Shown here one piece after another: positions 17,964-35,413 of a stretch of DNA of 64,000 bases (position 1 is its first letter; each line of letters starts with the position of its first letter). The notes beneath the pieces were generated by a model that had not been told where the DNA came from, searched no databases, and saw only the letters and a program-made list of their open reading frames with translations. Source of the DNA: Rhizobium oryzihabitans. Lineage in GTDB: Bacteria; Pseudomonadota; Alphaproteobacteria; Rhizobiales; Rhizobiaceae. Both the position numbers and the translations under genes were made by a program. Location: positions 434,001-498,000 of the forward strand of contig NZ_CP048632.1 of assembly GCF_010669145.1 (NCBI RefSeq), read 5' to 3'.

Positions 17964-18008
17964 GCGAAGAATCGTTTTTTAAGCGGCGTTTAAGCCGAAA
18001 TGTCGCGC

Positions 18009-18143
18009 TTAAAAAGCGCGGTCGCGCCTGATCATGGCTTTGAATTCCTCGTCTTCCCGCCGCATCTCGGCGACGACGGAGATCATCGATGTCACGAACA
18101 TAATGCTGATCAGGGCAAGAAGCAGCGTCAAAAATGTGAACAT
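18009..18143 (-). CDS. 44-residue membrane microprotein
   Basis: A short frame opening MFTFLTLLLALISIMFVTSM and ending with a charged tail (EMRREDEEFKAMIRRDRAF). The first half is a single transmembrane helix and the second is highly charged, which is typical of a bitopic small membrane protein. It has its own terminator 46 bases beyond the stop, and another small membrane protein gene lies just upstream on the same strand. I do not recognise a family and no function can be stated. Confidence 0.55.
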   Translation of the reverse strand: MFTFLTLLLALISIMFVTSMISVVAEMRREDEEFKAMIRRDRAF

Positions 18144-18183
18144 GATAGTGTCTCCATCTGGTGCGAGAAATTCTCGCCCTCTA

Positions 18184-18363
18184 TCAGTAATAATTCATAT
18201 ACTGGTAACGGGCGGTCAGCTGCGGATAGTCCGGACCCTGCTTCTCAGGCTTCTGTTCATAAATACTAAACGTCGTTGCCACCATGGCGATGACCAGTAC
18301 TGTCCAGGCGGTGCTGATGACACTGATCTTTGCCGAAGTAGACTGTTTTTCTCTTACAAACAT
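18184..18363 (-). CDS. 59-residue single-pass membrane protein, unknown
   Basis: Start at 18363 (MFVREKQSTSAKIS) is preferred because AAGGAACGG precedes it by about 4 bases; the frame is open further upstream. One hydrophobic helix (VISTAWTVLVIAMVATTFSI) is flanked by a basic N-terminus and a polar, Tyr-rich C-terminus (YPQLTARYQYMNYY). The family is unknown to me. It sits 40 bases upstream of the 44-residue membrane microprotein gene and probably shares its transcript. Confidence 0.6.
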   Translation of the reverse strand: MFVREKQSTSAKISVISTAWTVLVIAMVATTFSIYEQKPEKQGPDYPQLTARYQYMNYY

Positions 18364-18503
18364 CTGTCCGTTCCTTTGGTTCTTTCTTAACGCGCCATGT
18401 GCGATCATGTTCCGCGTCAATCGTAAAAATCGATTAGCATCGCGCCTGTGAAACTTCCTTGAATGGCTTGTTCATCTGGCGTTCAGGAAACTGGCTGTGG
18501 GCA

Positions 18504-18572
18504 TCATTCGAGAAAAAGGTACTCGGCAGCGAATGATGCGACGATCGAAAGGACGATCATGAAGGCCAGCAT
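18504..18572 (-). CDS. Possible 22-residue membrane peptide
   Basis: ATG at 18572 is preceded by CCGGAGAATTGAAA, a good ribosome site. The peptide MLAFMIVLSIVASFAAEYLF is one hydrophobic helix, reminiscent in size of KdpF or CydX-class subunits, but I cannot assign it to any. It is third in a minus-strand row of tiny membrane frames. Low confidence because of length. Confidence 0.35.
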   Translation of the reverse strand: MLAFMIVLSIVASFAAEYLFLE

Positions 18573-18780
18573 TTTCAATTCTCCGGATGCTTAACGGGTG
18601 AGGGGCGTTTCGGTTTCCTGATGGTGTGCATTTATAGAAAATAGCCCTGAAACCGCACTGAACGGCCCATTCATCCGTGGTTCAGGCCGCCCGGAACACG
18701 GGCTTGGGTGGTAAAAGTCTTGCGCCGAGCCCGTCTCCATGACAAAAGGCGGCACATAACGCCCACCACCTGAGAGCGAT

Positions 18781-19275
18781 ATGACGATTGCCTTTTATCC
18801 AGGATCCTTCGATCCGATGACCAACGGACATCTGGATGTGCTTATCCAGGCACTGAACGTGGCGTCCAAAGTCATCGTCGCCGTCGGCATCCATCCCGGA
18901 AAAGCGCCGATGTTCAGTTTCGAGGAGCGGGCGGCGCTGATACGCCAGGCCCTTTCCGAGACCCTGCCGGGCGAAGCGGCGCGCATGGAAGTCGTTTCCT
19001 TCGATAATCTGGTTGTCGATGCCGCCCGTCAGCATGGCGCACGTCTTTTGTTGCGCGGCCTGCGGGATGGCACCGATCTTGATTATGAAATGCAGATGGC
19101 CGGCATGAACCGCCAGATGGCGCCGGACATCCAGACCGTATTCCTGCCCGCCGGCACCTCGTCGCGACCCATTACAGCCACATTGGTCCGGCAGATCGCC
19201 GCCATGGGCGGCAATGTGGACGCCTTCGTGCCCAAAGCCGTGCTTGAAGCCCTCAACGCCAAGCTGAAGCGCTGA
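18781..19275 (+). CDS. coaD: Phosphopantetheine adenylyltransferase
   Basis: 164 residues, standard length for CoaD, which makes dephospho-CoA from phosphopantetheine and ATP. Nucleotidyltransferase signature: [17 protein letters not shown] (T/HxGH) at the N-terminus. [21 protein letters not shown] lies mid-protein, and [17 protein letters not shown] takes the place of the ISSTxVR motif. First gene of a plus-strand run: coaD, two cyclophilins, then queA and tgt. Confidence 0.96.
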
Positions 19276-19304
19276 CTTCAGCCTCACATTCTGGAGCCAA
19301 TCCG

Positions 19305-19874
19305 ATGAAACTCGTTCGATTTGCCTTTGCCGGCGCCCTGTTTGCGGGCGCGCTTGCCGCCAGCACCCTTGCATCTGCCGCCGAACTCTTGACTGTCCAG
19401 CTGAAGGACGGCCCCGTTGTCATCGAGCTGATGCCTGAGGTTGCGCCCAAGCACGTGGCGCAGATCGAGGCGCTGGCCAAAAAGGGCGCTTATGACAACG
19501 TCGCCTTCCACCGCGTCATCGACGGTTTCATGGCGCAGACCGGCGACGTGCAGTATGGCAACATGGAAAAGGGCTTCAGCGCCCAGCGCGCCGGCACCGG
19601 CGGCTCCGACCTGCCGGATATTCCGGCTGAATTCTCCAAGGTGCCGTTCACGCGCGGCGTGGTCGGCATGGCCCGCTCGCAGGATCCGAATTCCGCCAAT
19701 TCGCAGTTCTTCATCATGTTTGCCGATGGTCCATTCCTGAACGGTCAGTACACCGTGGTCGGCAAGGTCGTGTCCGGCATGGAAGCCGTGGACAAGATCA
19801 AGCGCGGCGCCGGCGGCAATGGCGAAGTTTCCAACCCCGACCGGATGATCAAGGTCACCGTCGGCAAGAAGTAA
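19305..19874 (+). CDS. Periplasmic cyclophilin-type peptidyl-prolyl isomerase
   Basis: 189 residues. An N-terminal signal peptide (KLVRFAFAGALFAGALAAST, likely cut after ASAA) is followed by a cyclophilin domain. Active-site residues are in YDNVAFHRVIDGFMAQTGD (Phe, His, Arg) and in MARSQDPNSANSQFFIMF. It should catalyse prolyl cis-trans isomerisation in the periplasm. Starts 29 bases after coaD and is followed 36 bases later by a second cyclophilin without signal peptide, apparently a duplicated pair with different locations. Confidence 0.95.
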   Translation: MKLVRFAFAGALFAGALAASTLASAAELLTVQLKDGPVVIELMPEVAPKHVAQIEALAKKGAYDNVAFHRVIDGFMAQTGDVQYGNMEKGFSAQRAGTGGSDLPDIPAEFSKVPFTRGVVGMARSQDPNSANSQFFIMFADGPFLNGQYTVVGKVVSGMEAVDKIKRGAGGNGEVSNPDRMIKVTVGKK

Positions 19875-19910
19875 GGTAGGGCAATAGAGCCCGAACAGAG
19901 GAGAATAATC

Positions 19911-20420
19911 ATGGCCGAGATCAAGGATCCGGAAAACACCATCATCATGGAAACGACGACCGGCAAGGTCGTGATCCAGCTTCTTCCGGAAGTTGCTCCG
20001 GGCCACGTTGCCCGCATCAAGGAACTCGTTTCTGAAGGCGCTTATGACGGCGTCGTTTTCCACCGCGTCATCGAAGACTTCATGGCCCAGACGGGCGACG
20101 TGAAGTTCGGCAAGAAGGGTGCGGAAAGCTTCAACCCGGCCCGCGCCGGCATGGGCGGCTCCGACAAGCCGGACCTGAAGGCTGAATTCTCCGCCATTCC
20201 GCACGTTCGCGGCACCTGCTCCATGGCCCGTTCGCAGAGCCCGAACTCCGCCAACTCGCAGTTCTTCATCTGCTTCACCGATTCGCCCTGGCTCAACAAA
20301 CAGTACACCGTCTGGGGCCAGGTCATCGAAGGCATGGAAGCCATCGACAAGGTCAAGCGCGGCGAGCCGGTGAAGGACCCCGATTCGATCGTTTCCATCA
20401 AGCTCGCTTCTGCGGCCTGA
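19911..20420 (+). CDS. ppiB: Cytoplasmic cyclophilin-type peptidyl-prolyl isomerase
   Basis: 169 residues with no signal peptide; preceded by AGAGGAGAATAATC, a strong ribosome site. The cyclophilin catalytic residues are kept (YDGVVFHRVIEDFMAQTGD and MARSQSPNSANSQFFICF), and WLNKQYTVWG contributes the Trp that binds cyclosporin in sensitive members. Closely similar to its neighbour upstream, indicating a tandem duplication with retargeting. Confidence 0.95.
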   Translation: MAEIKDPENTIIMETTTGKVVIQLLPEVAPGHVARIKELVSEGAYDGVVFHRVIEDFMAQTGDVKFGKKGAESFNPARAGMGGSDKPDLKAEFSAIPHVRGTCSMARSQSPNSANSQFFICFTDSPWLNKQYTVWGQVIEGMEAIDKVKRGEPVKDPDSIVSIKLASAA

Positions 20421-20731
20421 TCATCGGAAATTGCAGTTCGACCCGTCTCGCAGTTTATGCGGGGCGGGTTTTGATGTTTATTGACGGTACATGATGCAGG
20501 CGGCGGGGCGACAGGTTTGGAGCCTGCCATCCGTCGCGTCGTTCTCTTCTTCCCTCATTCCTGTGCTTGTCACAGGAATCCAGCCAGTCCAAGTCATTGG
20601 GCTGAAAGGACTCTTCTCGTCGCGCAGACGCGCGTCGACTGGATTCCTGTGACAAGCACAGGAATGAGGGGGCGGATGCGTCGGGATGCAAAACACCGTG
20701 CCGTGTCATCGAATTTCTGGAAGCCCTTGCA
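20421..20731. other. Intergenic region ppiB to queA with repeat
   Basis: About 310 bases occupied mainly by the family A repeat listed separately at 20555-20668. CCCGTCTCGCAGTTTATGCGGGGCGGG at 20442-20468 is a weak hairpin directly downstream of ppiB. No gene seen. Confidence 0.6.
20555..20668. repeat. Palindromic intergenic repeat, family A copy 2
   Basis: Outer arms TCATTCCTGTGCTTGTCACA and TGTGACAAGCACAGGAATGA, with inner CAGTCCAAGTCATTGGGCTG and GCGCAGACGCGCG. Differs from the 24.2 and 38.0 kb copies by a few substitutions, mostly in the inner hairpin. Confidence 0.85.
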
Positions 20732-21814
20732 ATGCGTGTAGACCTGTTCGATTTCGATCTGCCCGAGGAGAATATCGCCCTTCGACCGGCGAACCCGCGC
20801 GATAGTGCGCGCCTGCTGGTGGTCGATCCGAATGAAAACCGCATGGAGGACCACCGCGTCTTCGATCTGCCGTCCTTCCTGAAGCCCGGCGATGCGCTTG
20901 TCTTCAACGACACCCGCGTCATTCCCGCCCAACTTGAAGGTGTCAGGCTGCGTGAAGGTGCGCCGGAGACGGCGGTTTCGGCCACGCTGCACATGCGCGC
21001 CGATCAATCCCGCTGGAAGGCCTTCGCGCGTCCCGGCAAGCGCATCAAGCAGGGCGACCGCATCCGTTTCGGTTACGAGCGCGACAATGCCTGCGGCCTT
21101 GCCCATCTGGAAGCCACCGTCGAGGAGAAGGGCGAGGAGGGCGAGATCACGCTGCTGTTCGACGTCTCCGGCCCGGTGCTGGACGAGGCGATCGCCTCCG
21201 TCGGCCATATTCCCCTGCCGCCCTATATCGCCGCCAAGCGGCCGGAAGATGCGCAGGACCAGACCGATTACCAGACAATTTATGCCCGCGAAAAGGGCGC
21301 CGTTGCCGCACCCACTGCCGGCCTGCATTTCACGCCCGATCTGTTTGCGGCGCTGGACGAAGCCGGCATCGAGCGGCATTTCGTGACGCTTCACGTTGGG
21401 GCAGGCACCTTCCTTCCGGTGAAGTCCGACGATACTGACGGTCACAAGATGCATTTCGAGATCGGCCATGTGTCGCAGGAAACCGCCGACCGGCTGAATG
21501 CGGTAAAGGCGCGCGGCGGACGCATCGTCTGCGTAGGCACGACATCGCTGCGCCTGATCGAAAGTGCGGCCGATGAGAATGGTGTTATCCATCCATGGTC
21601 CGATGCCACCGGGATTTTCATCACGCCGGGATACTGCTTCCGCGCGGTCGATATTCTGATGACGAATTTCCACCTGCCGAAATCGACGCTGTTCATGCTC
21701 GTTTCGGCTTTCTGCGGTCTCGAAACGATGCGTGACGCTTATAAGCACGCCATCGAAACCGGATACCGTTTTTATTCCTATGGCGATTCCAGCCTGTTGT
21801 TCCGGAAGAACTGA
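20732..21814 (+). CDS. queA: S-adenosylmethionine:tRNA ribosyltransferase-isomerase QueA
   Basis: 360 residues. QueA transfers and isomerises ribose from SAM to 7-aminomethyl-7-deazaguanine in tRNA, giving epoxyqueuosine. Motifs: [18 protein letters not shown] at the N-terminus, [16 protein letters not shown]...[10 protein letters not shown] and [13 protein letters not shown]. Near the C-terminus is [19 protein letters not shown]. The stop (TGA) overlaps the ATG of tgt by one base, so the two steps of queuosine synthesis are coupled. Confidence 0.97.
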
Positions 21815-22944
21815 TGCACGAGAAATTCACCTTCACCCTGAAAGCCACGAGTGGCGGCGCACGTCTTGGCGAAGTTGCCATGCCGCGCGGCGTCATCCGC
21901 ACGCCCGCCTTCATGCCGGTTGGCACGGTTGGTACCGTCAAGGCCATGTATCTCGATCAGGTGCGCGAGCTGGGGGCCGATATCATTCTCGGCAATACCT
22001 ATCACCTGATGCTGCGGCCCGGCCCGGAGCGCGTGGCAAGGCTTGGCGGCCTGCATGAGCTTATCCGCTGGCCGCATCCGATCCTCACCGATAGCGGCGG
22101 TTTTCAGGTCATGTCGCTTTCCGGCCTGCGCAAGCTGGATGAGCAGGGCGTAACCTTCAAGAGCCATGTGGACGGTTCGCTGCACCACATGTCGCCGGAA
22201 CGCTCGATCGAAATCCAGGGCATGCTCGATTCTGATATCCAGATGCAGCTAGATGAATGCATTGCGCTACCGGCCGAGCGCAAGGAAATCGAGCGCGCCA
22301 TGGAAATGTCGCTGCGCTGGGCGGAGCGCTGCCGTGTCGCGTTCGGAGAACAGCCGGGCAAGGCCATGTTCGGCATCGTGCAGGGCGGCGACCAGCCGGA
22401 TCTGCGCATCCGCTCCGCCGAAGGGCTGAAAGAGCTTGATCTGAAGGGCTATGCGGTCGGCGGTCTTGCCGTCGGAGAGCCGCAGGATGTGATGCTCGGC
22501 ATGCTCGATATCACCCTGCCGGTGCTGCCCACCGAGAAACCGCGTTACCTGATGGGCGTCGGTACGCCTGACGATATCCTGAAGTCGGTAGCGCGCGGCA
22601 TCGACATGTTCGACTGCGTGATGCCGACCCGTTCCGGCCGTCACGGGCTTGCCTTTACCCGCCGTGGCAGGGTCAATATCCGCAATGCCCGCCACGCCGA
22701 GGATAAGCGGCCGCTGGACGAGCAGTCCAACTGCCCGGCCTCGCGCGATTATTCCCGGGCCTATCTGCATCATCTGACGCGCTCCAACGAGGCGCTGGGC
22801 GGCATGCTGCTCTCCTGGCACAATCTTGCCTATTATCAGGAGCTGATGCAGGGTATCCGCAAGTCGATCGAGGAAGGCCGTTTCGCCGATTTTTATGCGG
22901 AAACCATAGAGATGTGGGCGCGGGGCGATATAGACCCGGTCTGA
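21814..22944 (+). CDS. tgt: Queuine tRNA-ribosyltransferase
   Basis: 376 residues, bacterial Tgt length. The enzyme swaps guanine-34 for preQ1 in tRNAs with GUN anticodons. Catalytic residues are in [11 protein letters not shown] (Asp) and [13 protein letters not shown] (Asp nucleophile). A typical TGT has four zinc ligands near the C-terminus; the expected CxCxxC region reads [16 protein letters not shown], where C and H remain but the usual CDCYTC is not complete. That could be a rhizobial variant and merits checking. Coupled to queA. Confidence 0.93.
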
Positions 22945-22980
22945 CGTTTCCCGACCTTTCTCCTGTTTCGGACGCTTTCA

Positions 22981-24138
22981 TTGGCACATGCGCCTTACGT
23001 TCTTTTCCGGGATGACACGACCGGCACGGTGACAGCCTTCACCGAGCCGGAGGAGATCATCGTCGCGGACGAGCCTGAGGCATTTTTCGCGGCGCTGAAG
23101 CGTATGGAACAGCTGCGTCGCGACGGGAAATATCTTGCCGGCTATATGTCTTACGAGGCGGGTTTCCTGTTCGAGCCGAAGCTTGCGCCTCTTGCGGCCG
23201 AGCCCCGCAATGTGCCGTTCTTGCGATTCGGCGTCTTTTCCGGCCCGCAGCCGGATGAGGGTCGGTTCGCGCGGCCTACAGACCTGCCGGATGCAGATGC
23301 CTTTCTGTCCGATCCTGTGCCCGCATGGAGCCTTGAAGATTATTGCCAGCGCTTCGAGCGGCTGCACGGGCATCTACGCCGGGGCGACTGTTATCAGGGC
23401 AATCTGACCATGCCGGTCCATGCCCGCTGGAGCGGCGATCCGCTGACGGCCTTCTGGTCATTGGTCGAGCGCCAGCCGGTCAGATATGGCGCGCTGGTCG
23501 ATCTCGGCGGACCTGTCATCCTGTCACGCTCACCGGAGCTGTTTTTCGCGGTTGATGCCCAAGGTTTCATCGAGACCCATCCGATGAAGGGTACGACGCC
23601 GCGTGGCGCGAATGCGCAAGAGGACCGGGCGATCATCGCGGCGATGCTTGAGGATGAAAAGACGCTCGCCGAAAACCGCATGATCGTCGATCTCCTGCGC
23701 AACGATATTTCCCGCATCACCGAGGTCGGCAGCCTCGATGTGCCGCGACTGTTCGATATTGAGACCTATCCCACCGTGCACCAGATGGTCAGCCATGTGC
23801 GGGCGAAGCTTTTGCCCGGTGTGACGGTGGAGGATATTTTTGCGGCGCTGTTTCCCTGCGGCTCGGTGACCGGCGCACCGAAAATGTGGGCGATGAAGAT
23901 CCTGCGCGAACTGGAGCAGACGCCGCGCGACGCCTATTGCGGTGCGATCGGCTTCATGTCTCCACATGGTGAGATGCGGTTCTCCGTGGCGATCCGCACG
24001 CTCAGCCTGTTTGATGATGGCCGCGCGGTCTTCAACGTTGGCGGTGGTATCATTTTCGATTCCGTGGCCGAGGCGGAATATGATGAGTGTCTGCTGAAAT
24101 CCAAGTTTGCGGTGGGCGACAGGTTGTTGCGGGAGTGA
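22981..24138 (+). CDS. pabB: Aminodeoxychorismate synthase component I PabB
   Basis: 385 residues, shorter than E. coli PabB because much of the N-terminal region is absent. Uses chorismate and ammonia to make aminodeoxychorismate for folate. Chorismate-binding features: IETHPMKGTTPRG (with the Lys used in PabB), ENRMIVDLLRNDISR, and GSVTGAPKMWAMKIL near the C-terminus. Start appears to be TTG 22981 and no Shine-Dalgarno is obvious, so the start is uncertain. It follows tgt by 36 bases. pabA/pabC are not in the window. Confidence 0.9.
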   Translation: MAHAPYVLFRDDTTGTVTAFTEPEEIIVADEPEAFFAALKRMEQLRRDGKYLAGYMSYEAGFLFEPKLAPLAAEPRNVPFLRFGVFSGPQPDEGRFARPTDLPDADAFLSDPVPAWSLEDYCQRFERLHGHLRRGDCYQGNLTMPVHARWSGDPLTAFWSLVERQPVRYGALVDLGGPVILSRSPELFFAVDAQGFIETHPMKGTTPRGANAQEDRAIIAAMLEDEKTLAENRMIVDLLRNDISRITEVGSLDVPRLFDIETYPTVHQMVSHVRAKLLPGVTVEDIFAALFPCGSVTGAPKMWAMKILRELEQTPRDAYCGAIGFMSPHGEMRFSVAIRTLSLFDDGRAVFNVGGGIIFDSVAEAEYDECLLKSKFAVGDRLLRE

Positions 24139-24197
24139 TCGGGAGAGAGGTGCGGCAAACTCGAAGTGTTCTGTCTTCGGCAATGCTCTCTCCTCCC

Positions 24198-24311
24198 TCA
24201 TTCCTGTGCTTGTCACAGGAAACCAGCCAGCCCAAGTCCTTGGGCTGAAAAGATTCCTCCCGTCGCACAGACGTGCGCCGACTGGATTCCTGTGACAAGC
24301 ACAGGAATGAG
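24198..24311. repeat. Palindromic intergenic repeat, family A copy 3
   Basis: Arms TCATTCCTGTGCTTGTCACA and TGTGACAAGCACAGGAATGA, inner CAGCCCAAGTCCTTGGGCTG. Between pabB and the convergent decarboxylase gene. Confidence 0.85.
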
Positions 24312-24393
24312 GGAGGTTGGAGGAGGCTCCAATATCAGCAGCCAGATACGCGTTCGTAAGAAAACCGGCTACGGGTTTCGCGACCACACGTCT

Positions 24394-25671
24394 TCAGCGC
24401 CCAATCACCCCAAACGCACCATCTTCCACCAGCACTTCCTTTGCCGCCGGATGGCTTAGAAAACCCGAAGGGCTGGCGCTGGCGCCATAGGCTCCCGATT
24501 GCAGGATGGCGAGGAGATCGCCGGCCTTCAGATTCGGCAGGGTCGCATTGCGGGCGAGCGTGTCGAGCGGTGTGCAGAGCGGGCCGACGATGGTTGCCGT
24601 TTCCCCGTAATCCGCCTGCATCATGGCCGGTGTGACGATGGGGTAGTTGCGCTTGACGATCTGGCCGAGATTGCCGGAGGCCGCCAGATGGTGGTGCATG
24701 CCGCCATCCGTTACCACGAAGGTGGTGCCGCGCGAGGTCTTTACCGAATTGACTTCCGCCACATAGACGCCGCCGGGGCCTGCCAGGAAACGGCCCGGTT
24801 CGACGATGACATGGGCGTCGGCGATCAGCGGATGCGCCTGCATCAAGGCCTTGAGGTCGGGAATGGCGGCGCTGACCGCTGCAAGATCGAGCGGCGTTTC
24901 TCCGGTGAAATAGGGGATGCCGAGGCCGCCGCCGAGATCGATGGTCCGAAGCGGCCTGCCGAGCATTTCCGCCATGCGCGCCGCAAGCAGAATGGAGTGT
25001 CTCCATTGGGAGATAAGCATCTCAGCATCGAGGATCTGCGTGCCACCGTAAATATGGACGCCGACGAGATCGATATGCCTGATGTCTTTGAACAGCGGCA
25101 GGACGTTTTCCAGCTCTTCCTCATCGAAACCGAAGGCGGTGGCCTTGCCGCCCATGCGCATGGCGCCGGCCTGCGTATCCGGCACCGGATTGATGCGGAT
25201 GGAGGCCTTGACCGGCCTGCCGATTGCCTCGATGCGGGCAATTTCCTCGGCGCTTTCGATATGGATTTCGCCGATGCCGCCCTTGATCACTTCCAGTAAT
25301 TCGGCCGCGCGTTTACCGGGGCCGGCGAAGATGATGTTTTCCGGCGGCATGCCCGCCTTGATGGCGGCGTGATATTCACCGACGGAGGCGATTTCCGCGC
25401 CGGCGCCTTCTTCGCGGAAGAGCGAGATGATGGCGGGCAGGGGATTGGCCTTCACCGAATAAAAGATATCGGCAAAACCGCTGAGCGCGGTTGCGAGATC
25501 CCGATAGGCGCGGCGCATGGCGCTCGCGTCATAGAGGAAGCACGGCGTTCCGGTCTCGGCAACGATATCGCGCACCGCAAGGCCGCCGATGACGAGATCG
25601 TTTTCGTCGACTGCGAATTGCGCGGCGGCAAGGGCCGGGCCGTGGCTTTGGGGTTTATCCGTGGGCGCCAT
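24394..25671 (-). CDS. PLP-dependent type III decarboxylase, carrier-protein-pathway associated
   Basis: 425 residues from ATG 25671, which overlaps the ligase gene by 17 bases. Fold type III (alanine racemase barrel plus beta domain), as in ornithine/diaminopimelate decarboxylases. The PLP lysine is in FYSVKANP (Lys74), the glycine-rich phosphate site is GGGLGIPYFTGE, and the C-terminal motif is VGPLCTPLDTLARN rather than the CESGD of LysA. That motif is typical of decarboxylases found with an AMP ligase and carrier protein (exosortase-A-associated group, and BtrK of butirosin synthesis, which acts on glutamyl-ACP). I infer decarboxylation of a carrier-bound or free amino acid; the substrate is unknown. 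Confidence 0.82.
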   Translation of the reverse strand: MAPTDKPQSHGPALAAAQFAVDENDLVIGGLAVRDIVAETGTPCFLYDASAMRRAYRDLATALSGFADIFYSVKANPLPAIISLFREEGAGAEIASVGEYHAAIKAGMPPENIIFAGPGKRAAELLEVIKGGIGEIHIESAEEIARIEAIGRPVKASIRINPVPDTQAGAMRMGGKATAFGFDEEELENVLPLFKDIRHIDLVGVHIYGGTQILDAEMLISQWRHSILLAARMAEMLGRPLRTIDLGGGLGIPYFTGETPLDLAAVSAAIPDLKALMQAHPLIADAHVIVEPGRFLAGPGGVYVAEVNSVKTSRGTTFVVTDGGMHHHLAASGNLGQIVKRNYPIVTPAMMQADYGETATIVGPLCTPLDTLARNATLPNLKAGDLLAILQSGAYGASASPSGFLSHPAAKEVLVEDGAFGVIGR

Positions 25672-27187
25672 TGTCCGTCCGTTCGCGCACCAGCGCGCGG
25701 TAATCCACCTTGCCATTGGCCGTGACCGGAAGCCGGTCGACCAGTTCTATGGCGCGCGGGATCATGAAGGGAGCGAGCATTTCGGCGGCTTTTTTGAGCG
25801 CTGTCGAAAGATCGATATTCTCGTTTGCGGCGGTTGCCACGGCATGCACCTTTTCGCCAGCAAAGGGGTCCGGCAGGCCGATGACCGCAACCTGCTGGAA
25901 GAGGCCTGTCGACATCAGGCTTTCTTCCACCTCGGTCGGGCTGATGCGATAACCGGAGGATTTTATCATCGCATCATTACGGGCAACGAAGCTGAAAAAG
26001 CCGTCCTCGTCCTCCACCGCCAGATCGCCGGAATAACACACGGTCTCGCCGCCACGTTCAGCCGGAATGAAAGGGTGAGGACGCAGCACCTTGGCGGTAT
26101 CTTCCGGCCGGTTCCAGTAACCCAGCGAGACGGTCGGGCCGCGATGGACGAGAATGCCGGGTTCGCCCGGTTTGGCGCGCTGTCCCTCAGCGGTGACGAT
26201 GAAGATTTCGCATTCCGGAATGGCCTTGCCGATGGAGGTCGGGCGGCGGTCGATCTCTTCCGGCGGCAGGAATGTGGAGCGGAAGGCTTCGGTGAGGCCA
26301 TACATCAGGTAGATTTTGGTGTCCGGCAGCTTTTCGCGCAACGCCCTCACGGTTTCCTGCGGCACACGCCCGCCGGAATTGGTAATGTAACGCAGATGCG
26401 GCAGCGGCGTCTTCGCCAGCAATGGTGCTGCTCTCGTGAGGATCGCCCAGACGGTCGGAACGCCGGCAAGCCCGGTAATGGCATGGTCACGCAGATCCCT
26501 GACGATATCGTCGCCCAGCCTAAAGGTGGAGATGATCGTCGTTGCACCCTGTTCCACCGCCGTCAGCAGCTGGTTCAGGCCATAGTCGAAACTGAAGGGC
26601 AGGATGGAGAGGATGCGATCTTTTTCGGTGATCTCAAGATAGGTGCGCACGATGCGCGCACCGGCGAGAAGATTGCGGTGCGACAGCATCACGCCCTTGG
26701 GCGAGCCGGTGGAGCCGGAGGTATAAAGGATCGCCGCGAGGTCCTCGCCGATTGCCGCCGAGGCTTTGGCGGGCGCGGCCGGGCGGTTATCCATATCTTC
26801 CGCCTGCAGCACTTTGACATGCGGCAGATCTTCCAGCGCCGCTTTCAGCTCATCCGTCATCGCAGCACTGCTGATGACGATTTTCGCGCCGCAATCCCTG
26901 ACGATATGGCGGATCTGCTGCGCTTTCAGGAGCGCGTTGACAGGCACGAAAACGCCGCCGGCCATACTCACGCCAAAGATCGACCAGCATTCCTCGATGC
27001 CGCGTGGCAGAAAGATGACGACGCGGTCACCACGCTCCGCCCCTGCATCCTGCAAGGCTGCCGCGCAGCGTTCGGCCGCCTGCGAAAATTCGCGGTAGCT
27101 CAGTGATTTTTCTTTGAAGACAAGCGCCTCACCGCTGCTTTCAGCCCGCGCGGTGAGCAGGTGGTGCAGCAGCACGTGGGGTGTCAT
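25655..27187 (-). CDS. AMP-forming acyl/aminoacyl ligase of carrier-protein cluster
   Basis: 510 residues, a complete ANL-superfamily adenylating enzyme. P-loop-like YTSGSTGSPKGVMLSHRNL is near residue 155-175, the A5 motif YGLTEAFRSTFLPPEEI follows, then GDLAVEDEDGFFSFVARNDAMIKSSGYRISP, and the C-terminal Lys is in NGKVDYRAL. It activates a carboxylic acid or amino acid as an acyl-AMP and presumably loads it onto the adjacent carrier protein, whose gene it overlaps by 4 bases. Related to ligases found with exosortase systems and to BtrJ-like proteins, but no exosortase is visible here. Confidence 0.84.
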   Translation of the reverse strand: MTPHVLLHHLLTARAESSGEALVFKEKSLSYREFSQAAERCAAALQDAGAERGDRVVIFLPRGIEECWSIFGVSMAGGVFVPVNALLKAQQIRHIVRDCGAKIVISSAAMTDELKAALEDLPHVKVLQAEDMDNRPAAPAKASAAIGEDLAAILYTSGSTGSPKGVMLSHRNLLAGARIVRTYLEITEKDRILSILPFSFDYGLNQLLTAVEQGATTIISTFRLGDDIVRDLRDHAITGLAGVPTVWAILTRAAPLLAKTPLPHLRYITNSGGRVPQETVRALREKLPDTKIYLMYGLTEAFRSTFLPPEEIDRRPTSIGKAIPECEIFIVTAEGQRAKPGEPGILVHRGPTVSLGYWNRPEDTAKVLRPHPFIPAERGGETVCYSGDLAVEDEDGFFSFVARNDAMIKSSGYRISPTEVEESLMSTGLFQQVAVIGLPDPFAGEKVHAVATAANENIDLSTALKKAAEMLAPFMIPRAIELVDRLPVTANGKVDYRALVRERTDNGAHG

Positions 27188-27447
27188 TTCCGGCGTTCCT
27201 GCATGACGAAGGCGATCAGATCCGCCGGCGTGCCGAGATTGCCCGGCGTGAAATGTTCGTCACTGAGAATGATGCCGAAGCCTTCGCCGAGAAAGATCAT
27301 CAGCTCGAGAAAGCCGAGCGAATCGATCACGCCGCCTTCTAGCAATTGCGTATCCGCCGCAAAGGGGGCGTGAGCCGGAAAACGCTGCGAGAGGTAGGAA
27401 TAGATGGTCTCTGACACATCCGCTTCCCTGAGTTGCGCTGAAACCAT
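27184..27447 (-). CDS. Free-standing acyl (peptidyl) carrier protein
   Basis: 87 residues starting at ATG 27447. Four-helix carrier fold with the phosphopantetheine attachment serine in GGVIDSLGFLELMIFLGEGFG (DSL motif). A C-terminal extension ends in a basic tail (VMQERRK). Start overlaps nothing upstream; its stop overlaps the ligase start by 4 bases, so both are co-translated. It cannot be the housekeeping fatty acid AcpP (different spacing and no DSLD/ELVM). Likely partner of the adjacent ligase and decarboxylase. Confidence 0.85.
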   Translation of the reverse strand: MVSAQLREADVSETIYSYLSQRFPAHAPFAADTQLLEGGVIDSLGFLELMIFLGEGFGIILSDEHFTPGNLGTPADLIAFVMQERRK

Positions 27448-27532
27448 GCTTGTTCTCCGCTCGTTCGCGCTCTCGGGATAGAGTGGCCGAAGCGCCTTTT
27501 CTTCTTTGCAGGCAAGGTTCAACGCGGTCTTT

Positions 27533-28380
27533 TCAAGAGCGTCCCAATACCCAGGGTGGCAATAACACCAATTCTGAGTATGTTTCGTTAATAAACCGTG
27601 GGTTCCATACGCCCTTTACTTGCATTGGCGCGGATTTGAGAACGGCAAATCCGCCGGCGTCGCGCTCCTCGTCAGAGGCCGCCATGGTCATGGCGAGCCG
27701 GCCCTTGCGAAGAAGATGGCGGGCGATCGCGGAGATGTGCCTTTGCGCGAGCTGCCTGTCCTCGCAATAGATGAGGCGGGCGGTGGGCAGCCGCTTGGTC
27801 ATGGTTTTTAAGAACACCAGGGGATGATGACGTCCATCCGCCTCCATAACCGCCACCATGCAGCCGAAACGCGCATGATCCTCCAGCATGTCACGCATCG
27901 CCGCCGGCAGCGCGCCCGGGGCACGTCGGCAAGCGGGCGAAGCCGCGCCCTTGCCGGACCGAGCGCCTTTGGCAGCAGCGGATAAAAGAGCGTATAATCC
28001 GTCACCGTCGAGAACCCCAGCCTTTCGTTCAGCTTGCAGGCTTCCGGGGAAGGGGTGAGGTCGGTGAAGGTTTCTTCCTGCGAGGACGAGGCCATTTGCA
28101 GCATGCGTGGCGCGAACCACCGGCTGGAAGGCTCGACGTACCAACTCGACAGATTGACGACCATCCTGTCTTCGTCGGGCAGGCGGCTTTTGATCGTCAA
28201 AAGCACACCGACGGCATCATCGCCCTTCATCAGCAATTGCCCGATCTCGCCGAAATTTAGCCGCGCGTGATGTGCGCTGACGAACGACAGCCCGCGAGAC
28301 CAGAAGGCCTCGCTTTTTTCCGGGAAACCCTTCGTCAAAAGCGCAACGGCGGCGACGCGGTTTCCGTTGTCGATCGGCAC
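27533..28380 (-). pseudogene. GNAT-like acyltransferase gene, split by a 1-base frameshift
   Basis: The first frame begins at GTG 28380 (MPIDNGNRVAAVALLTKGFP) and runs well into ALGPARARLRPLADVP; the downstream frame continues with APGALPAAMRDMLEDH to the end at 27533. Re-joining at 27915-27921 (minus-strand CCCCGGG) needs one extra base and restores a single protein of about 280 residues. The N-terminal part (WYVEPSSRWFAPRML, ACKLNERLGF) resembles GNAT or FemAB-type acyltransferase folds. It sits 86 bases upstream of the carrier-protein gene and may transfer the carrier-bound product. Whether the frame is truly broken or an assembly error is open. Confidence 0.7.
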
Positions 28381-28599
28381 GATTCTCAGAGGTCGCTCCC
28401 GCTGTCTGGCGTCGTTCTGGCCCGTGGAGCGTTTTCAACTCCACGCAGTATCGGCTTACGACGATAGATTTACCGTCCCGTTAATCACAGTGAGAGCAGG
28501 GTGCGGGAGGACGATCACATTTGCATGAAGGACAGCCGCGCCCGCGCGCCTGCCCTTGTGTTTGTCTGATCAAAGGCGGGGCCTGATCATATCAATTGA

Positions 28600-29727
<1,128 letters not shown>

Positions 29728-30274
29728 TTTCGATCTCCTGGCGTTGTCTCATGATTGGAAAGGGCTTTTTGCCCGAGCTAGGCGGGAGGGGCAAGAGGTC
29801 TTTCGTGTATCTGTCGCACACAAAATGAAAGATCCTTTCAAAGCTGCTGCAAAGAAGCGCGGATCGGGGAAGTTGTGTCCCTGCGATCGAATTTCTACCT
29901 GTCGTGTTCAATTCATTTTTTCGATAATAATGTATTATAAATATTCGAATTAAGAATATGATTTTGCATATTATTTTTGATTTTGAAGTGATCTTTAATT
30001 TACGAATCCAGTGTTTAATTCGCCATATAGAATGACGAATGCAATTGGCCTGCGGTTGCCCCAGCCGCCAGTCCGAGAAGATGTTTTAAATCTCCTGAGC
30101 CCGATTGGTTCCGGCCATTTGTGTCGCGCCGCCATGAGAGCGGCCTGCATCAGCGGTTTTGCTGAATTTATTTTCTTGCGGTCCGGGTGTTTCGTCCGGC
30201 TGCAGGCCTTTGTCTGTCCGGGTGGAACGAACTCGGGTGATCCGTGGCGGTTGGACGAAAAGCGATAGTTTTAG
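29728..30274. other. AT-rich intergenic region between adh and the tadG-like gene
   Basis: About 550 bases. 29890-30010 is strongly AT-rich (for example ATAATGTATTATAAATATTCG) and carries no persuasive frame. It separates divergently transcribed genes, so promoters for both are expected here. Its base composition is far from that of neighbouring genes. Confidence 0.5.
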
Positions 30275-31518
30275 ATGTTGCATATTGGAAGAATATTGAA
30301 CGCATTGACGAATGGCTTCCGCTCGTTTCTGAGGGATCGGCGGGCAAATTTCGCCATTATTACGGCATTGCTCATGCCGGTTTTCCTTTTGACTTTCGGC
30401 ATGCTTTTCGAAGGCGGCCGGGGCTGGCCTATTACAGCCAGTCAAAACGGGTGATCGCACAAGCCTGTGAGCGCTCCACGAAACCGACGCGGACGAATGT
30501 ACCCCTTGATGAGGTACGTCGTAAAAACGTGCTCGATACCTTCGATGCGCTCATCCGTTCCACCAATCAGAAGGTGGTGAGCCGGGAGGTGAAAATCGAT
30601 TGGTTGACCACGAACATCAACGCTAAATTCACCTACAAAACGATGTTGGGTGGGATGTTCGACGTCGAAAAGATGGACTACGAGCTGACTTATCGGTGTG
30701 GCGGTATTCCCCCCTATCCTTATGACGGTGAAGTGATCGTCAATAACACATTCGATGTGTTGAATGGTGCCAACCGCATTCTCAAACACGGCAAAAGCCC
30801 CACTACCCCTAACGGTTGCTGGGGCGTTTATAGCTACGAGGAGCTTGGGTGGGATGGCGGTGCTGGTCCAGGCATCGAGCTTCAGGACTGGAGCAATGCC
30901 GAATGCCGCAAAAGACACGGCTGGCAAGGCTATGAGGAGCCTGAGAAGGGCGATGCTGCCCTTTGCGGCACCACATCGACAGATCCCAAGGATACAAAAA
31001 AGAACGACAAATCAAAGGAAGTCGACCAGCAGAAAGAAAACGACAAGGGCGGGTCTAGTTCCCAGCAAGCCAACCAGTGCCCGGCCAAGACGGATGACCC
31101 GCAGAAAGCATCTATGCTGAGTGTACAGAAAATACCGCCGACCAAATACGTGGTCGAACTCGACAGCAATTGGGATGGGCAGAAGAGAAGAGACGCCAAC
31201 AGCTCCATTTTCAAAATTGTTGAACTGCATCCCGGAGAATACGAGGTTTCGGTCTGGTATAATGGCCGCAACGACGCCTATGGGGGCACCAACGACATCG
31301 ATATCTTTCTGCAGGTCCAGCGCCCGCAATTAGGCCCCGAGAAGAAGATTATTGAAATGAGTCAAAAGGGTAAGGTCTTCTGGGAGCGCAGAAGCTACTC
31401 GATCACGGTTGATACCTATTCCGTCTACAAGCTAACGATTGCCGCAGGCGGGAAAAGCGACAGCATCGGCGGCATCATTACGGCTTTCGAGGTGAAGTAT
31501 GTCGACTCGCCGAAGTAG
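30275..31518 (+). pseudogene. TadG-like pilus-assembly gene with an N-terminal frameshift
   Basis: ATG 30275 starts with RDRRANFAIITALLMPVFLL, the Flp/Tad-type signal and membrane anchor, but that frame ends at TGA 30455. The rest (AYYSQSKRVIAQACERST onward, to 31518) is open in a different frame. Joining at 30420-30423 (GGGG) by one extra G gives ...FEGGRGLAYYSQSKR, a normal TadG-like junction. The remainder contains a soluble domain, a Lys/Gln/Ser-rich linker (KEVDQQKENDKGGSSSQQ) and a C-terminal beta-sandwich-like region (LHPGEYEVSVWYNGRND). Extracellular role in pilus or surface assembly is inferred from the neighbours. Confidence 0.7.
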
Positions 31519-32038
31519 TATTGTCTCCCTCCGTTGTTGTTGTCTGCTCAGGTCCTGCGTCGCCGATATCCGGGCCGCAACCGCCGTCGAGTTCGGCTTG
31601 CTGATGCCGGTCTATTTTTTGCTGGTCTTCGGTATTTTCGAAGTCGGATTGGCCCTGCTGCTTAGTCTCAATCTGGCGACCGCGGCCAATGCTGGCGGGG
31701 AATTGCTGCGCAAGGCTGCGGTAAGCCAGAAAGCGGTCACCGAGGCAGAGCTCAGGCGGGTAATAGCCTCAAATTTCCTGCTTGGTACAACGGAAAAGGA
31801 TATGAAAATAGCGCTCATTCCCATCCCGGATGCGGACTTCACCGCCGCGCCGCTGACGTTTCCGATCGAGAACAAGTTTCAGGCGCCAGACAGGAAGACC
31901 GGGCAATATCTTCTGGCACTCGGTTATAATTGGCGATTCATTCTTCCCACCACCCGTTTGCTGGTCCAAGGTGGGGGTAACCGGCCGCAATTGCAAAATC
32001 TCTCTCTGGCGATCACCGCAAATCGGGTGACGGAATGA
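31499..32038 (+). CDS. TadE-like pilus-assembly protein
   Basis: 179 residues overlapping the tadG-like gene by 20 bases. A basic N-terminal stretch leads into a TadE-type hydrophobic segment (DIRAATAVEFGLLMPVYFLL) with the characteristic Glu after the processing site. The rest is a compact periplasmic domain. TadE proteins are minor pseudopilins processed by TadV in Flp/Tad systems. No pilus ATPase, secretin or TadV is nearby, so it must rely on components elsewhere or be an orphan. Ends by overlapping the next gene by 4 bases. Confidence 0.72.
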   Translation: MSTRRSSIVSLRCCCLLRSCVADIRAATAVEFGLLMPVYFLLVFGIFEVGLALLLSLNLATAANAGGELLRKAAVSQKAVTEAELRRVIASNFLLGTTEKDMKIALIPIPDADFTAAPLTFPIENKFQAPDRKTGQYLLALGYNWRFILPTTRLLVQGGGNRPQLQNLSLAITANRVTE

Positions 32039-32613
32039 TGGTCGTCCGGTTGCAATCCATTTTCACCACCATGATGCGATCTCGCGCCGGCGTGGCTGCC
32101 GTGGAATTTTCCCTGTTGTTGCCAATGCTGGTCGTCCTTCTGGCGGTGATGATCGAAACCGGTCGGGGTTGGTTGAGTTACGATCGATTCGTAACGGTCG
32201 TCGACAATACAGCCCGCTGGTCCGCCCGTTTCCCGGAATTCGAAGAGCGTGTTCGGACGGGCGTCAAAACCTTTGTCATCGCCGCCGGCCGGCCTCTCGA
32301 CCCCGAAAAGCTCGATTTGACCTTGCGAAGTGCCAGACTGGTGGGGGGGGTCGCCGTCACCGAATTTGCGCCTTACAACTTCTTCGGCTCCGCCGAAAAC
32401 GTGAAATGGGATAAGATGTTGAAGGCGGGGAACTTCAAGGAAGAAGAGGCCGTCATCGTGATTTCGGGCCGTTACAAATATCGACCGCTCTTTTCGTTTC
32501 TCAGCAATACGACCCTCGAGTTCCAATATGTGGCGACTGTCAACCCTTATTTCTCGCGGCACTATAAGTATCAGAAGGGCAATTCTGACTGGAAGTTCTG
32601 GAACGTTCGCTGA
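32035..32613 (+). CDS. TadF/TadE-like pilus-assembly protein with a G8 tract
   Basis: 192 residues beginning MMVVRLQSIFTTMMR. The TadE-like motif AGVAAVEFSLLLPMLVVLL (residues about 20-38) is followed by a helical and globular region (RGWLSYDRFVTVVDNTARWS). Overlaps the upstream gene by 4 bases (ATGA). It contains an eight-G run at 32343-32350 that is in frame as read. Third and last member of the tad-like set; convergent to trmFO. Confidence 0.7.
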   Translation: MMVVRLQSIFTTMMRSRAGVAAVEFSLLLPMLVVLLAVMIETGRGWLSYDRFVTVVDNTARWSARFPEFEERVRTGVKTFVIAAGRPLDPEKLDLTLRSARLVGGVAVTEFAPYNFFGSAENVKWDKMLKAGNFKEEEAVIVISGRYKYRPLFSFLSNTTLEFQYVATVNPYFSRHYKYQKGNSDWKFWNVR

Positions 32614-32659
32614 CGGGAACATTGGGTAAGTTGCTCTTGGCGCTCCAATACCATGTCTA

Positions 32660-34105
32660 TCAGGGGCCTTGAACGATACCAGCGGTCGTGGCGGCTTCGC
32701 CCTCCTTCAACCACTCCGCACAATCCCTCAATGCCCGCGCTGCAACCAGTTGGCGTTTCATGATCGTCTTGTCCTTGCCGCGGAAGCGCTTGACGCCTTC
32801 CGGCTTGACGATGGAGCCGGGTTCCAGTTCCGGGAAGAGGCCGAAATTGATGTTCATCGGCTGGAAGGAGCGCTTGCCCGGCTCATCATTCGAAGAGAGG
32901 TGGCCGCCGGTGATGTGGTTGAGAAGCGAGCCGAGTGCGGTGGTTGCGGGCGGCAGGCTTGGGGCCTCGCCCTTCTGTTCGGCGGCGGCGAAGCGGCCGG
33001 CCAGAAGGCCGACCGAGGCGCTTTCCACATAACCTTCGCAGCCGGTGATCTGGCCGGCGAAGCGCAGGTCCGGACGCGATTTCAGCTTCAGCGACGGATC
33101 GAGCAGTATCGGGGAATCGATATAGGTGTTGCGGTGCAGGCCGCCAAGCCTTGCGAATTCCGCATTTTCGAGGCCCGGTATCATGCGGAACACATCCGCC
33201 TGGACGCCGTATTTCAATTTGGTCTGGAAACCGACCATGTTGTAGAGCGTGCCAAGCGCATTGTCCTGTCGCAGCTGGACGACGGCATAGGCCTTGACGG
33301 TCGGGTTATGGGCGTTGGTCAGGCCCATGGGCTTCATCGGGCCATGGCGCAGCGTCTGGCGGCCACGTTCGGCCATGATCTCGATCGGCAGGCAGCCGTC
33401 GAAATAGGGCGTGCCTTCCCATTCCTTGAAACCCACCGTATCGCCGGCGATCAGCGCGTCGATGAAGGCGTTATATTGTTTCTCATCCATCGGGCAGTTG
33501 ATGTAATCCTTGCCAGTGCCGCCGGGGCCGACCTTGTCGTAGCGCGACTGGTACCAGCAGATATCCATGTTGATGCTGTCGCGATGCACGATGGGCGCGA
33601 TGGCATCGAAAAAGGCGAGCGCATCCGCACCCGTTTGCGACTGGATGGCTGCGGCCAGATCCGGCGAGGTAAGCGGGCCGGTGGCGATGATGCTGTTGCC
33701 CCATTCCTTTGGCGGCAGGCCGGAAACCTCTTCGCGGACGATTGTCACCAACGGGTGATTTTCTAGCTCTTTCGTCACTGCTTCAGAAAACCCGTCGCGA
33801 TCGACGGCGAGCGCGCCGCCGGCCGGCACCTGATGCCTGTCGGCGCAGGCCATGATCAGCGAGCCGGCAAGGCGCATTTCGGCGTGAATGACACCGACCG
33901 CATTCGCCGTCGCATCGTCGGAGCGGAAGGAATTGGAACAGACCAGTTCCGCCAGCGTGTCGCCCTTATGCGCATCCGTGCCGCGCACGCCGCGCATTTC
34001 GTGCAGGATGACGGGCACGCCGCTCTCAGCAATCTGCCAGGCGGCTTCCGAACCGGCCAGTCCGCCGCCCACGACGTGAATGGGAGAAGTGGTCTTGTCT
34101 TGCAT
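32660..34105 (-). CDS. trmFO: Methylenetetrahydrofolate--tRNA-(uracil-5-)-methyltransferase TrmFO
   Basis: 481 residues, an FAD enzyme that makes m5U54 in tRNA with methylene-THF as the carbon source. The FAD motif [20 protein letters not shown] is at the N-terminus; other conserved segments are [31 protein letters not shown] and [13 protein letters not shown]. Start at ATG 34105 is preferred over 34135, which adds a non-family ten-residue lead. It is convergent with the tadF-like gene. Confidence 0.95.
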
Positions 34106-34340
34106 GCTGGCGTCCATGAGCCGCGCGGTTGCCAAGGGCTCCCGTCCGGCGGCTGTCTTTCGAGTGATTGTTTTGCACGGGCCCCGAAGGACGCGGCATT
34201 GTTTGCGGATGCACTAGCATGCATGGCCGGGGCAGCCAAATGTTTTTGCGGGTGGGAGATAACCAGGGGCAGGCGGCGGCCGGAGTTTTGGCGAAGCCCG
34301 AGATCTGGGCAAGCGTTTGTGGGACGAGCGGTCGCCGCTT

Positions 34341-34461
34341 GTTTCTTCTCCCCGCCGGGGAGAAGGTCGCGGCAGCGGGATGAGGGGGCGAGGGTAGAGA
34401 GATGCGGAGAGCTTGCCCCTCCGACCCCTTCGGGCCACTTTCTCCCCGGGCGGGGACAAGA
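34341..34461. repeat. Palindromic intergenic repeat, family D copy 1
   Basis: Opens GTTTCTTCTCCCCGCCGGGG and has the GCAGCGGGATGAGGGGGCGA central block; this copy ends with TCTCCCCGGGCGGGGACAAG, so the right arm has drifted. Other copies are near 46.1, 48.9, 54.1 and 61.1 kb. Confidence 0.8.
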
Positions 34462-34553
34462 CATGTGCCGCGCTGCCGAGACTTTATCGGTCGCCTTTGG
34501 CGCTCGGTATAAGCCGCGACGGAGAACCAATTCCCCGCAAATACCGCCAGAAT

Positions 34554-34584
34554 CAAAAACGGCGCCAGAGGCGCCGTTTTCTTA
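34554..34584 (-). terminator. Terminator of the first DUF1127 gene
   Basis: AAAACGGCGCCTCTGGCGCCGTTTT on the minus strand is a near-perfect hairpin with a T-tract, about 60 bases after the stop codon. It is symmetrical and could act in both directions. Confidence 0.8.
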
Positions 34585-34643
34585 AAACCTGTCGCTCGAT
34601 CGTCGCGCCCTGGAGGTCGGGCAGCGGGACGACCGTTTACGCC

Positions 34644-34787
34644 TTAGCGGAACGAACGGGCTGCTACGTTACGGATGTCGTAACGGGTCAGGCCGATGTC
34701 GCTCAGAGCCTGGTTGGAGAGGCTGCCGAGTTCGTTGATCGTGCGGCGGTAGGAGATCCAGTTCTTTGCGATGCGGATAGGGTTCAT
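34644..34787 (-). CDS. DUF1127 small Arg-rich protein (47 residues)
   Basis: Translation MNPIRIAKNWISYRRTINEL then GSLSNQALSDIGLTRYDIRN with a short basic tail. The signature L..L...L.DIGL.R.DI of DUF1127 is clear. GAGGAAACGACC precedes the ATG. Family members in A. tumefaciens have been linked to phosphate and carbon metabolism; no enzymatic role is expected. Has its own terminator; a second DUF1127 gene is 480 bases upstream. Confidence 0.9.
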   Translation of the reverse strand: MNPIRIAKNWISYRRTINELGSLSNQALSDIGLTRYDIRNVAARSFR

Positions 34788-35266
34788 GGTCGTTTCCTCA
34801 ATCTTTCTTTGTGAATTCGTCTGCCGGCTCAGTGTTTCTGTGCTCTCGGCTGTTGAGGTTTATATATAGACATTCAGCTATGTTGTGCAGTGCAGAATTT
34901 AGGCTACTGCCATGCATTTGTGCACTATGTCGGCTAATTTTACGGCTTTGAGTATCATCTGAGCAAAATATGAGCGGAAATGCCTGTCTTTCGGGCGTTT
35001 TTGGAGGGCTCCGTGGCCTTTGGCGACAGTAAGCGGGCCTTTTTCGATGTCAGAGAGTGTCGATGGCGCCTTCAGGCTCTCAAAATCACGCTACGCGACC
35101 GGCCTGCCGATGCATTTTTGATCGGTTTCCTTCCAGCGCCTTCCAGAGTGTGGGGGCTGGTTCGATCTCAAGGCATTGCCCAAAACGAAAAAAGGCCAGA
35201 GGCGGGGAGCCTCAGGCCTTTTGAAAGGGTAGTCTCGCATCCGCCGCATTCAAGCGGCGGGGCGTA
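34788..35266. other. Intergenic region between the two DUF1127 genes
   Basis: 480 bases. The part just upstream of the first DUF1127 gene (34800-34960) is AT-rich and likely regulatory; a hairpin terminator at 35187-35224 belongs to the second gene. No further gene is seen. Confidence 0.5.
35187..35224 (-). terminator. Terminator of the second DUF1127 gene
   Basis: On the minus strand, AAAAGGCCTGAGGCTCCCCG pairs with CCTCTGGCCTTTTTTCG to give a hairpin with a six-T tract, about 45 bases after the stop. Confidence 0.85.
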
Positions 35267-35413
35267 TTAGATGCCGACGGCGGTACGGGCGACGCGGCGG
35301 ATGTCCTGACGGCCAATGCCGAGGTCACTCAGTTCGCGGTCGGTCATACGGCCGAGTTCGGTTACGGTCTGACGATACTTGCGCCAGTTGGTCAGCGAGC
35401 GTGCAATGTTCAT
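35267..35413 (-). CDS. DUF1127 small Arg-rich protein (48 residues)
   Basis: MNIARSLTNWRKYRQTVTEL, then GRMTDRELSDLGIGRQDIRR and a short tail ending in VGI. An AGGAAG sequence lies 6 bases before ATG 35413, so I prefer that start over ATG 35419, where it would abut the codon. Carries the DUF1127 motif with more Arg than its 47-residue neighbour. Has its own terminator. Confidence 0.9.
   Translation of the reverse strand: MNIARSLTNWRKYRQTVTELGRMTDRELSDLGIGRQDIRRVARTAVGI

Follow-up and report, generated by a model that had tools for sequence, protein, structure and literature searches.

What might be made by four adjacent minus-strand genes that look like an adenylating ligase, a free carrier protein, a decarboxylase and an acyltransferase-like protein? 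The genes lie in a 64,000-nucleotide stretch of the Rhizobium oryzihabitans genome (hereafter the window, in whose numbering all positions are given). The source assembly (G000; nine contigs, 5.86 Mb) and the 38 genomes compared with it are referred to here under the genus label Agrobacterium. In order of transcription the genes encode a GNAT-like transferase, an acyl carrier protein (ACP), a stand-alone adenylation enzyme (LIG) and a pyridoxal phosphate (PLP)-dependent decarboxylase (DC). Judged from sequence relationships, it is moderately likely that the set forms a beta-aminoacyl-carrier cassette, in which LIG, ACP and DC would prepare a carrier-bound beta-amino acid that the GNAT protein would then transfer.

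The ligase, the carrier protein and the decarboxylase

LIG matches PF00501 and PF13193 and belongs to the adenylation enzymes of the ANL/non-ribosomal peptide synthetase (NRPS) type. Its best NCBIfam model is the exosortase-A-associated TIGR03098 at 579.0 bits, under the curated cut-off of 592.35 and hence outside the family as defined; the next-best model, the highest-scoring acyl-CoA ligase model, reaches 308.2 bits, a difference that speaks clearly against a fatty acyl-CoA ligase. At full length the enzyme finds the LgrA adenylation domains on top in PDB and VinN (3wvn) next, and with residues 190-330 VinN itself comes first (3wv4, 3wvn; E 1e-14), before CmiS6 and IdnL1. Residues D201, Y202, S271, F302 and R303 align with VinN D230, F231, S299, K330 and R331 with one offset of 16, so that LIG carries the VinN-type pocket signature of Asp, a bulky residue, Ser and Arg at positions 230, 231, 299 and 331. 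According to passages of the VinN literature, D230 is the amine ligand, F231 and S299 are bulky pocket residues and K330/R331 lie in a shortened loop (PMC11253843), and D230 binds the amino group and S299/R331 the alpha-carboxyl group (PMC7756342). Together D230, F231, S299 and R331 hold 3-methylaspartate so that its beta-carboxyl group is activated. We scanned this pocket in 102 LIG rows, equal to 71 distinct sequences, 51 of which have a DC within 5 kb. The Asp, the Ser/Thr and the Arg are kept in all 51, and the combination occurs in two of the other 20; for one of these two, L112, a wider stretch of the locus (L128) shows a DC at a distance of 3.3 kb.

ACP contains the motif IDSLGFLEL, with the DSL serine at residue 43 (Ser43), as expected of a free carrier protein. 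All its profile matches stay below cut-off (AmcB, OlsHI-ACP, DltC, and PF00550 with 14.7 against 20.8). In all GNAT-type loci scanned an ACP-like open reading frame (ORF) immediately precedes LIG, and one lies beside LIG in most exosortase-type loci; none was found for L103, L107 and L120, and a wider stretch of L107 (L123) shows one (E 3e-4).

The best NCBIfam model for DC is TIGR03099, the companion of TIGR03098, again below its cut-off (414.5 versus 478.45 bits) and thus short of membership. Against TIGR03098 and TIGR03099, the ligases and decarboxylases of relatives score 588.9 and 411.1 bits (L043), 629.7 and 423.0 bits (L053) and 644.4 and 565.4 bits (L055, a sister trio from Sphingosinicella). 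In PDB, two entries of BtrK come first (2j66/7ru7, E 4e-77), followed by diaminopimelate decarboxylases from E 3e-51, and DC and BtrK have GPLCTP-D and DGGMHHH in common. The active-site stretch VGPLCTPLDTLARN is present in DC in place of the CESGD of LysA; its loop reads CTPLD, which is the BtrK-like CTPxD and not the CESGD/CETGD of LysA, and CTPxD occurs in 77 of 77 DC rows compared, many of them near-copies and one distant row having been dropped. The score against the lysA model TIGR01048 (266.9 bits) lies under the cut-off of 297.9, and G000 encodes a separate LysA-like enzyme with CETGD as well as an ornithine-decarboxylase-like enzyme with CDSAD. With the low score, the CTPxD loop and the LysA-like gene elsewhere, we reject DC as a second LysA. 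An earlier note on this DNA, made from its letters, had proposed activation and decarboxylation of an amino acid on the carrier, had singled out the motif replacing CESGD and had pointed to similar ligase/decarboxylase pairs at exosortase loci; these claims agree with the comparisons above. As grounds for refutation it had named a ligase that groups with fatty acyl-CoA ligases or a decarboxylase that groups with true LysA/SpeC enzymes, and neither grouping is borne out.

The same note took BtrJ of butirosin synthesis as the analogue of LIG, and this analogy does not hold: BtrJ is presumably an ATP-grasp ligase, of another class than the ANL-type LIG with its VinN-type pocket. Because that pocket is kept, VinN/VinL/VinO and AfcQ/AfcK/AfcP are the best precedents, and a conversion of aspartate to beta-alanine is more probable than one of glutamate to gamma-aminobutyrate (GABA). 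A butirosin-like scheme, with LIG loading L-Glu through its gamma-carboxyl group and DC giving GABA-ACP, would draw on the fact that BtrK, an L-glutamyl-carrier decarboxylase according to passages of PMC7857480, is the nearest PDB relative of DC. We consider it quite improbable, since the VinN-type pocket of LIG points to a beta-amino dicarboxylate; moreover, BtrK is the sole named carrier-protein decarboxylase among 48 PDB matches, so its nearness is weak evidence.

Vicenistatin synthesis, as described in parts of PMC11284099, PMC11253843 and PMC7756342, uses the VinN/VinL/VinO system together with VinM and VinK. The locus resembles it in the stand-alone adenylation enzyme with a matching pocket, the free ACP and the PLP decarboxylase for a carrier-bound amino acid, and differs in having a tandem GNAT in last place and in the residues Y202 for VinN F231 and F302 for K330. 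No polyketide synthase (PKS), VinM-type second adenylation enzyme or VinK-type acyltransferase was seen by eye among the ORFs of 18000-36000. In Burkholderia, passages of PMC12186527 report that AfcQ/AfcK/AfcP of AFC-BC11 load L-Asp through its side chain in vitro and decarboxylate it on the carrier to beta-Ala, even iteratively, and the same Asp to beta-Ala route has been proposed for BolO/BolC/BolN of the bolagladins (parts of PMC7756342 and PMC12186527). These trios share with our locus a VinN-type adenylation enzyme, a free carrier protein and a decarboxylation on the carrier, predicted in our case, but they feed lipopeptide clusters with a fatty acyl-AMP ligase (FAAL), a KAS III-like enzyme or an NRPS, where our locus has the GNAT only. 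Butirosin BtrI/BtrJ/BtrK, in which decarboxylation takes place on a small carrier protein (passages of PMC7857480), shares the match of DC to BtrK and differs in the ligase class, LIG being of PF00501/PF13193, and in the predicted substrate.

By analogy with these systems, LIG would activate an acidic amino acid, with L-aspartate the likeliest, by adenylating its side-chain (beta) carboxyl group, and would load the residue onto the phosphopantetheine of the free ACP. In a second step DC would strip the alpha-carboxylate from the tethered residue to give beta-alanyl-ACP, whose terminal amine is free. We infer substrate and order of steps from the pocket and the precedents, and regard this conversion of L-Asp to beta-alanyl-ACP as probable.

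A second LIG paralogue is encoded elsewhere in G000 (C4:1463493-1464992; 8003-9517 of locus L129), adjacent to an ACP-like ORF and near genes of asparagine-synthase and NAD-synthase type and, by eye, a GNAT-like gene of 381 aa. It has Gly at the amine position and Ala at the Ser position, with the Arg kept, and a decarboxylase was not found in the L129 stretch; this is a related but different carrier cluster.

Gene linkage, conservation and spread

The overlap between ACP and LIG measures 4 nt; that between LIG and DC measures 62 nt, or 17 nt should DC start at its second ATG (25671). The earlier note had counted four minus-strand genes, three of them overlapping; the overlaps and the order of DC, LIG and ACP stand (Table 1), while the fourth gene, the GNAT, is not one open frame in G000. 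With dN/dS between 0.085 and 0.185 for every one of five cassette segments against each of five relatives, the cassette genes are more than chance ORFs.

Table 1. Features of the locus in window numbering.
Feature	Position	Strand	Basis
DC, BtrK/VinO-type fold-III PLP decarboxylase, 440 aa	24394..25716	-	profile, PDB and motif matches
LIG, stand-alone adenylation enzyme, 510 aa; D201/Y202/S271/R303 pocket, K493	25655..27187	-	Pfam, NCBIfam and PDB alignment
ACP, free acyl carrier protein, 87 aa, ATG at 27447	27184..27447	-	sequence, sub-cut-off profile matches
GNAT-like transferase region, ~280 aa in relatives, frame-split here (28380->27533)	27533..28380	-	relatives, predicted fold
Class III alcohol dehydrogenase, upstream neighbour outside the cassette	28600..29727	-	TIGR02818 588.4 bits (cut-off 543.95)
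PabB-like chorismate-using enzyme, convergent downstream neighbour outside the cassette	22981..24138	+	named by eye

DC and the GNAT, both searched in all 39 Agrobacterium genomes, occur in the same 24. LIG and ACP, looked for in the carriers and not in the 15 non-carriers, turn up in each of the other 23 carrier stretches. In 23 of the 24 carriers (the window, L071-L089 and L091-L093) the cluster is flanked by the dehydrogenase and PabB-like genes, L082 showing the dehydrogenase end only at a contig edge. In the non-carriers these two genes are direct neighbours in eight, 87-264 bp apart, and separated in seven. The genome G013 has its cassette at another site (L094), with neither flank within 13 kb; in the tree its LIG falls among those of Shinella (100/99). 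Together these features suggest acquisition by horizontal transfer.

The order GNAT-ACP-LIG-DC recurs in Shinella, Rhizobium NFR07, metagenome-assembled genomes of Bradyrhizobiaceae/Reyranella, Methylocystis and the loci L090, L168 and L169, so that the linkage is conserved in relatives, contrary to the third ground for refutation in the earlier note; related sequences inflate all these counts. Across 397 genomes sampled from the order, 22 LIG rows reach at least 718 bits, 16 of them (G000 included) with a GNAT directly upstream and six, all from one genus (g66, family f42), without. Viewed from the GNAT side, each of the 16 rows with E < 1e-58 outside G000 adjoins a LIG (that of G686 being cut short), and none of the 28 weaker rows (E 2e-44 to 4e-26) does. 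In a LIG tree of 38 rows a 100/100 branch separates the GNAT-adjacent rows from the other labelled groups, and unlabelled Methylorubrum-type rows fall inside the GNAT-adjacent side. It is barely conceivable that the genes stand side by side by accident, LIG as a fatty acyl-CoA ligase and DC as a second LysA that do not cooperate. LIG does match many acyl-CoA ligase models and DC the lysA model, but TIGR03098 and TIGR03099 are best by a wide margin, DC has the CTPxD loop in a genome with its own LysA-like gene, and the idea is contradicted by the overlap, the co-occurrence and the conserved linkage.

Among the surroundings, a dispersed element of ~125 bp, whose inverted arms are 47 nt long, occupies part of the gap between DC and the PabB-like gene (24191-24316) and recurs at 20548-20670; 116 candidate places were found in G000, 40 of which were scored, and many match on both strands. 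Genes at 30244-32613 look TadE/TadG-type and pilus-associated (by eye only). An Rfam scan of 24100-28800 gave no family reaching its gathering score, and the promoter and terminator scan returned sites no commoner than in shuffled sequence.

The tandem GNAT and a proposed transfer step

In G000 the N-terminal part of the GNAT lies in the frame of 27808-28380 and the C-terminal part in that of 27533-28144, and the start codon is uncertain (GTG at 28380 or a CTG further upstream). Both parts are in one frame in 44 of 44 relative loci that have both (several of these loci being one strain represented twice, and L050, which gave one half, standing outside the count), with the first stop after 268-282 residues. 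Of the 24 matching Agrobacterium genomes, 23 give a single match and G000 gives two. A stop falls inside the query span, at the extreme C-terminus, in 13 of the single-match genomes, whose proteins end a few residues sooner. As the frame is open in the other 23 carriers, intact copies exist. Both pieces in G000 still look constrained (dN/dS 0.10-0.18), so the split would be either a very recent lesion or an assembly or sequencing artefact, and the transfer step may be broken in the sequenced strain.

An intact relative (L034:6798-7652) has no Pfam or NCBIfam match above cut-off, and its confidently predicted structure is a tandem GNAT fold (pLDDT 89.6) with matches to GNAT folds, mostly acetyltransferases. 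These results point to a family of tandem GNATs that neither Pfam nor NCBIfam models cover and that is tied to carrier-protein genes. Weaker members of the family within the order (L160-L167) belong to another type of cluster and lie near short-chain dehydrogenase/reductase, transaminase-like and acetolactate-synthase-like genes and near O-acetylhomoserine-sulfhydrylase-like and ~600-aa AMP-ligase-like genes (by eye, not all of them everywhere).

In the third step of the proposed cassette, the tandem GNAT would move the beta-alanyl, possibly oligo-beta-alanyl, group from ACP to an acceptor amine; this transfer we hold to be almost an even call, leaning to doubt. Alternatively, the GNAT could cap the free amine of beta-alanyl-ACP with an acyl group from acyl- or acetyl-CoA (or acyl-ACP), another enzyme releasing the product. 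Such capping would suit the acetyltransferases among the fold matches, and the vicenistatin pathway protects the amine of a carrier-bound beta-amino acid before use (passages of PMC11284099). It is nonetheless unlikely: no release enzyme was seen by eye beside the Agrobacterium cassette, although a fused double hydrolase of Shinella (L047) and Rhizobium NFR07 (L046), which matches the exosortase-A hydrolases TIGR03100/03101 below cut-off, could serve.

Glycan genes, exosortase loci and the possible acceptor

A transferred beta-alanyl group may end up on an amino sugar within a surface-glycan precursor, a suggestion that remains tentative and builds on the neighbours of related cassettes. In a Pfam check of ten flanking proteins, two of which had no match, the Shinella cassette L047 is flanked by two glycosyltransferases, a polysaccharide deacetylase and flippase-type and UDP-glucose-dehydrogenase-type proteins, L043 by a flippase-type protein, L050 by a glycosyltransferase, and L114, which has LIG, DC and an ACP-like ORF with no GNAT found, by a deacetylase. 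The cassettes of L046, L048 and L168 adjoin glycosyltransferase, flippase-type or deacetylase genes by eye. The cluster had earlier been called self-contained, which fits Agrobacterium, but several relatives' clusters sit among polysaccharide genes. That the product is instead a small metabolite free to diffuse, such as a beta-alanyl amide, and no surface modification, is rather unlikely: the cassette appears alone by eye in Agrobacterium, L090 and L169 and a second GNAT clade accompanies other AMP-ligase-like genes, but the Shinella L047, L043 and L050 copies, and by eye those of L046, L048 and L168, adjoin glycan-type genes, the sister branch lies near exosortase genes, and no transporter gene was seen in the cassette.

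The absence of an exosortase seen earlier extends to the whole genome, with no PF09721 match in G000 and hence no exosortase A system. Of 18 other LIG carriers tested, ten have an exosortase, in nine within 24 kb of LIG, and these exosortase-near ligases form a separate tree group (90/81, not a starred branch). TIGR03098/TIGR03099 are the nearest named families of LIG and DC, from which our locus differs in its sub-cut-off scores and its genome without an exosortase; the GNAT partner is seen only in the non-exosortase branch. The exosortase-near loci keep the D/[ST]/R pocket and the CTPxD motif, which suggests that the same chemistry takes place there and that the TIGR03098/TIGR03099 pair makes a beta-aminoacyl-ACP. 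The listings and passages of the exosortase literature consulted state no role for this pair; a search joining VinN and exopolysaccharide gave nothing related, and for papers joining any two of exosortase, carrier protein and beta-alanine, exosortase figured in none among the matches listed.

Several observations weigh against the cassette as proposed. In some relatives, exosortase-type included, Y202 is replaced by Ala and S271 by Thr, and R303 is also kept in paralogues that lack the amine-binding Asp (L108, L113), so that this Arg alone is no proof of an amino-acid substrate. VinN is absent among the 50 Foldseek matches listed for LIG, and VIA places it seventh to eighth in a close field; as fold comparison does not separate VinN from other ANL enzymes, the VinN-type case rests on the residue alignment. 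The GNAT gene is split in G000, single-domain aminoglycoside acetyltransferases fit the GNAT model as well as tandem ones do, and the fold matches reveal neither donor nor acceptor. Finally, no glycan gene was seen by eye beside the cluster in Agrobacterium, L090 or L169.

A wider version of the cassette reading, which we consider doubtful, would make it a mobile beta-alanylation cassette for surface glycans, in which the trio makes (oligo-)beta-alanyl-ACP and the new tandem GNAT family transfers the group to an amino sugar; the exosortase-A ligase/decarboxylase pair would then perform the same chemistry and place a cationic amine on a biofilm polysaccharide. The trio has so far been described in natural-product assembly. 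For a cluster visible until now just as "ligase" and "decarboxylase", a concrete substrate (L-Asp, activated at its side chain) and product (beta-alanyl-ACP) can now be proposed, and through the common motifs this proposal reaches the exosortase-A-associated TIGR03098/TIGR03099 pair as well. The cassette may represent a route by which bacterial glycans or metabolites acquire a primary amine with no need of NRPS or PKS enzymes.

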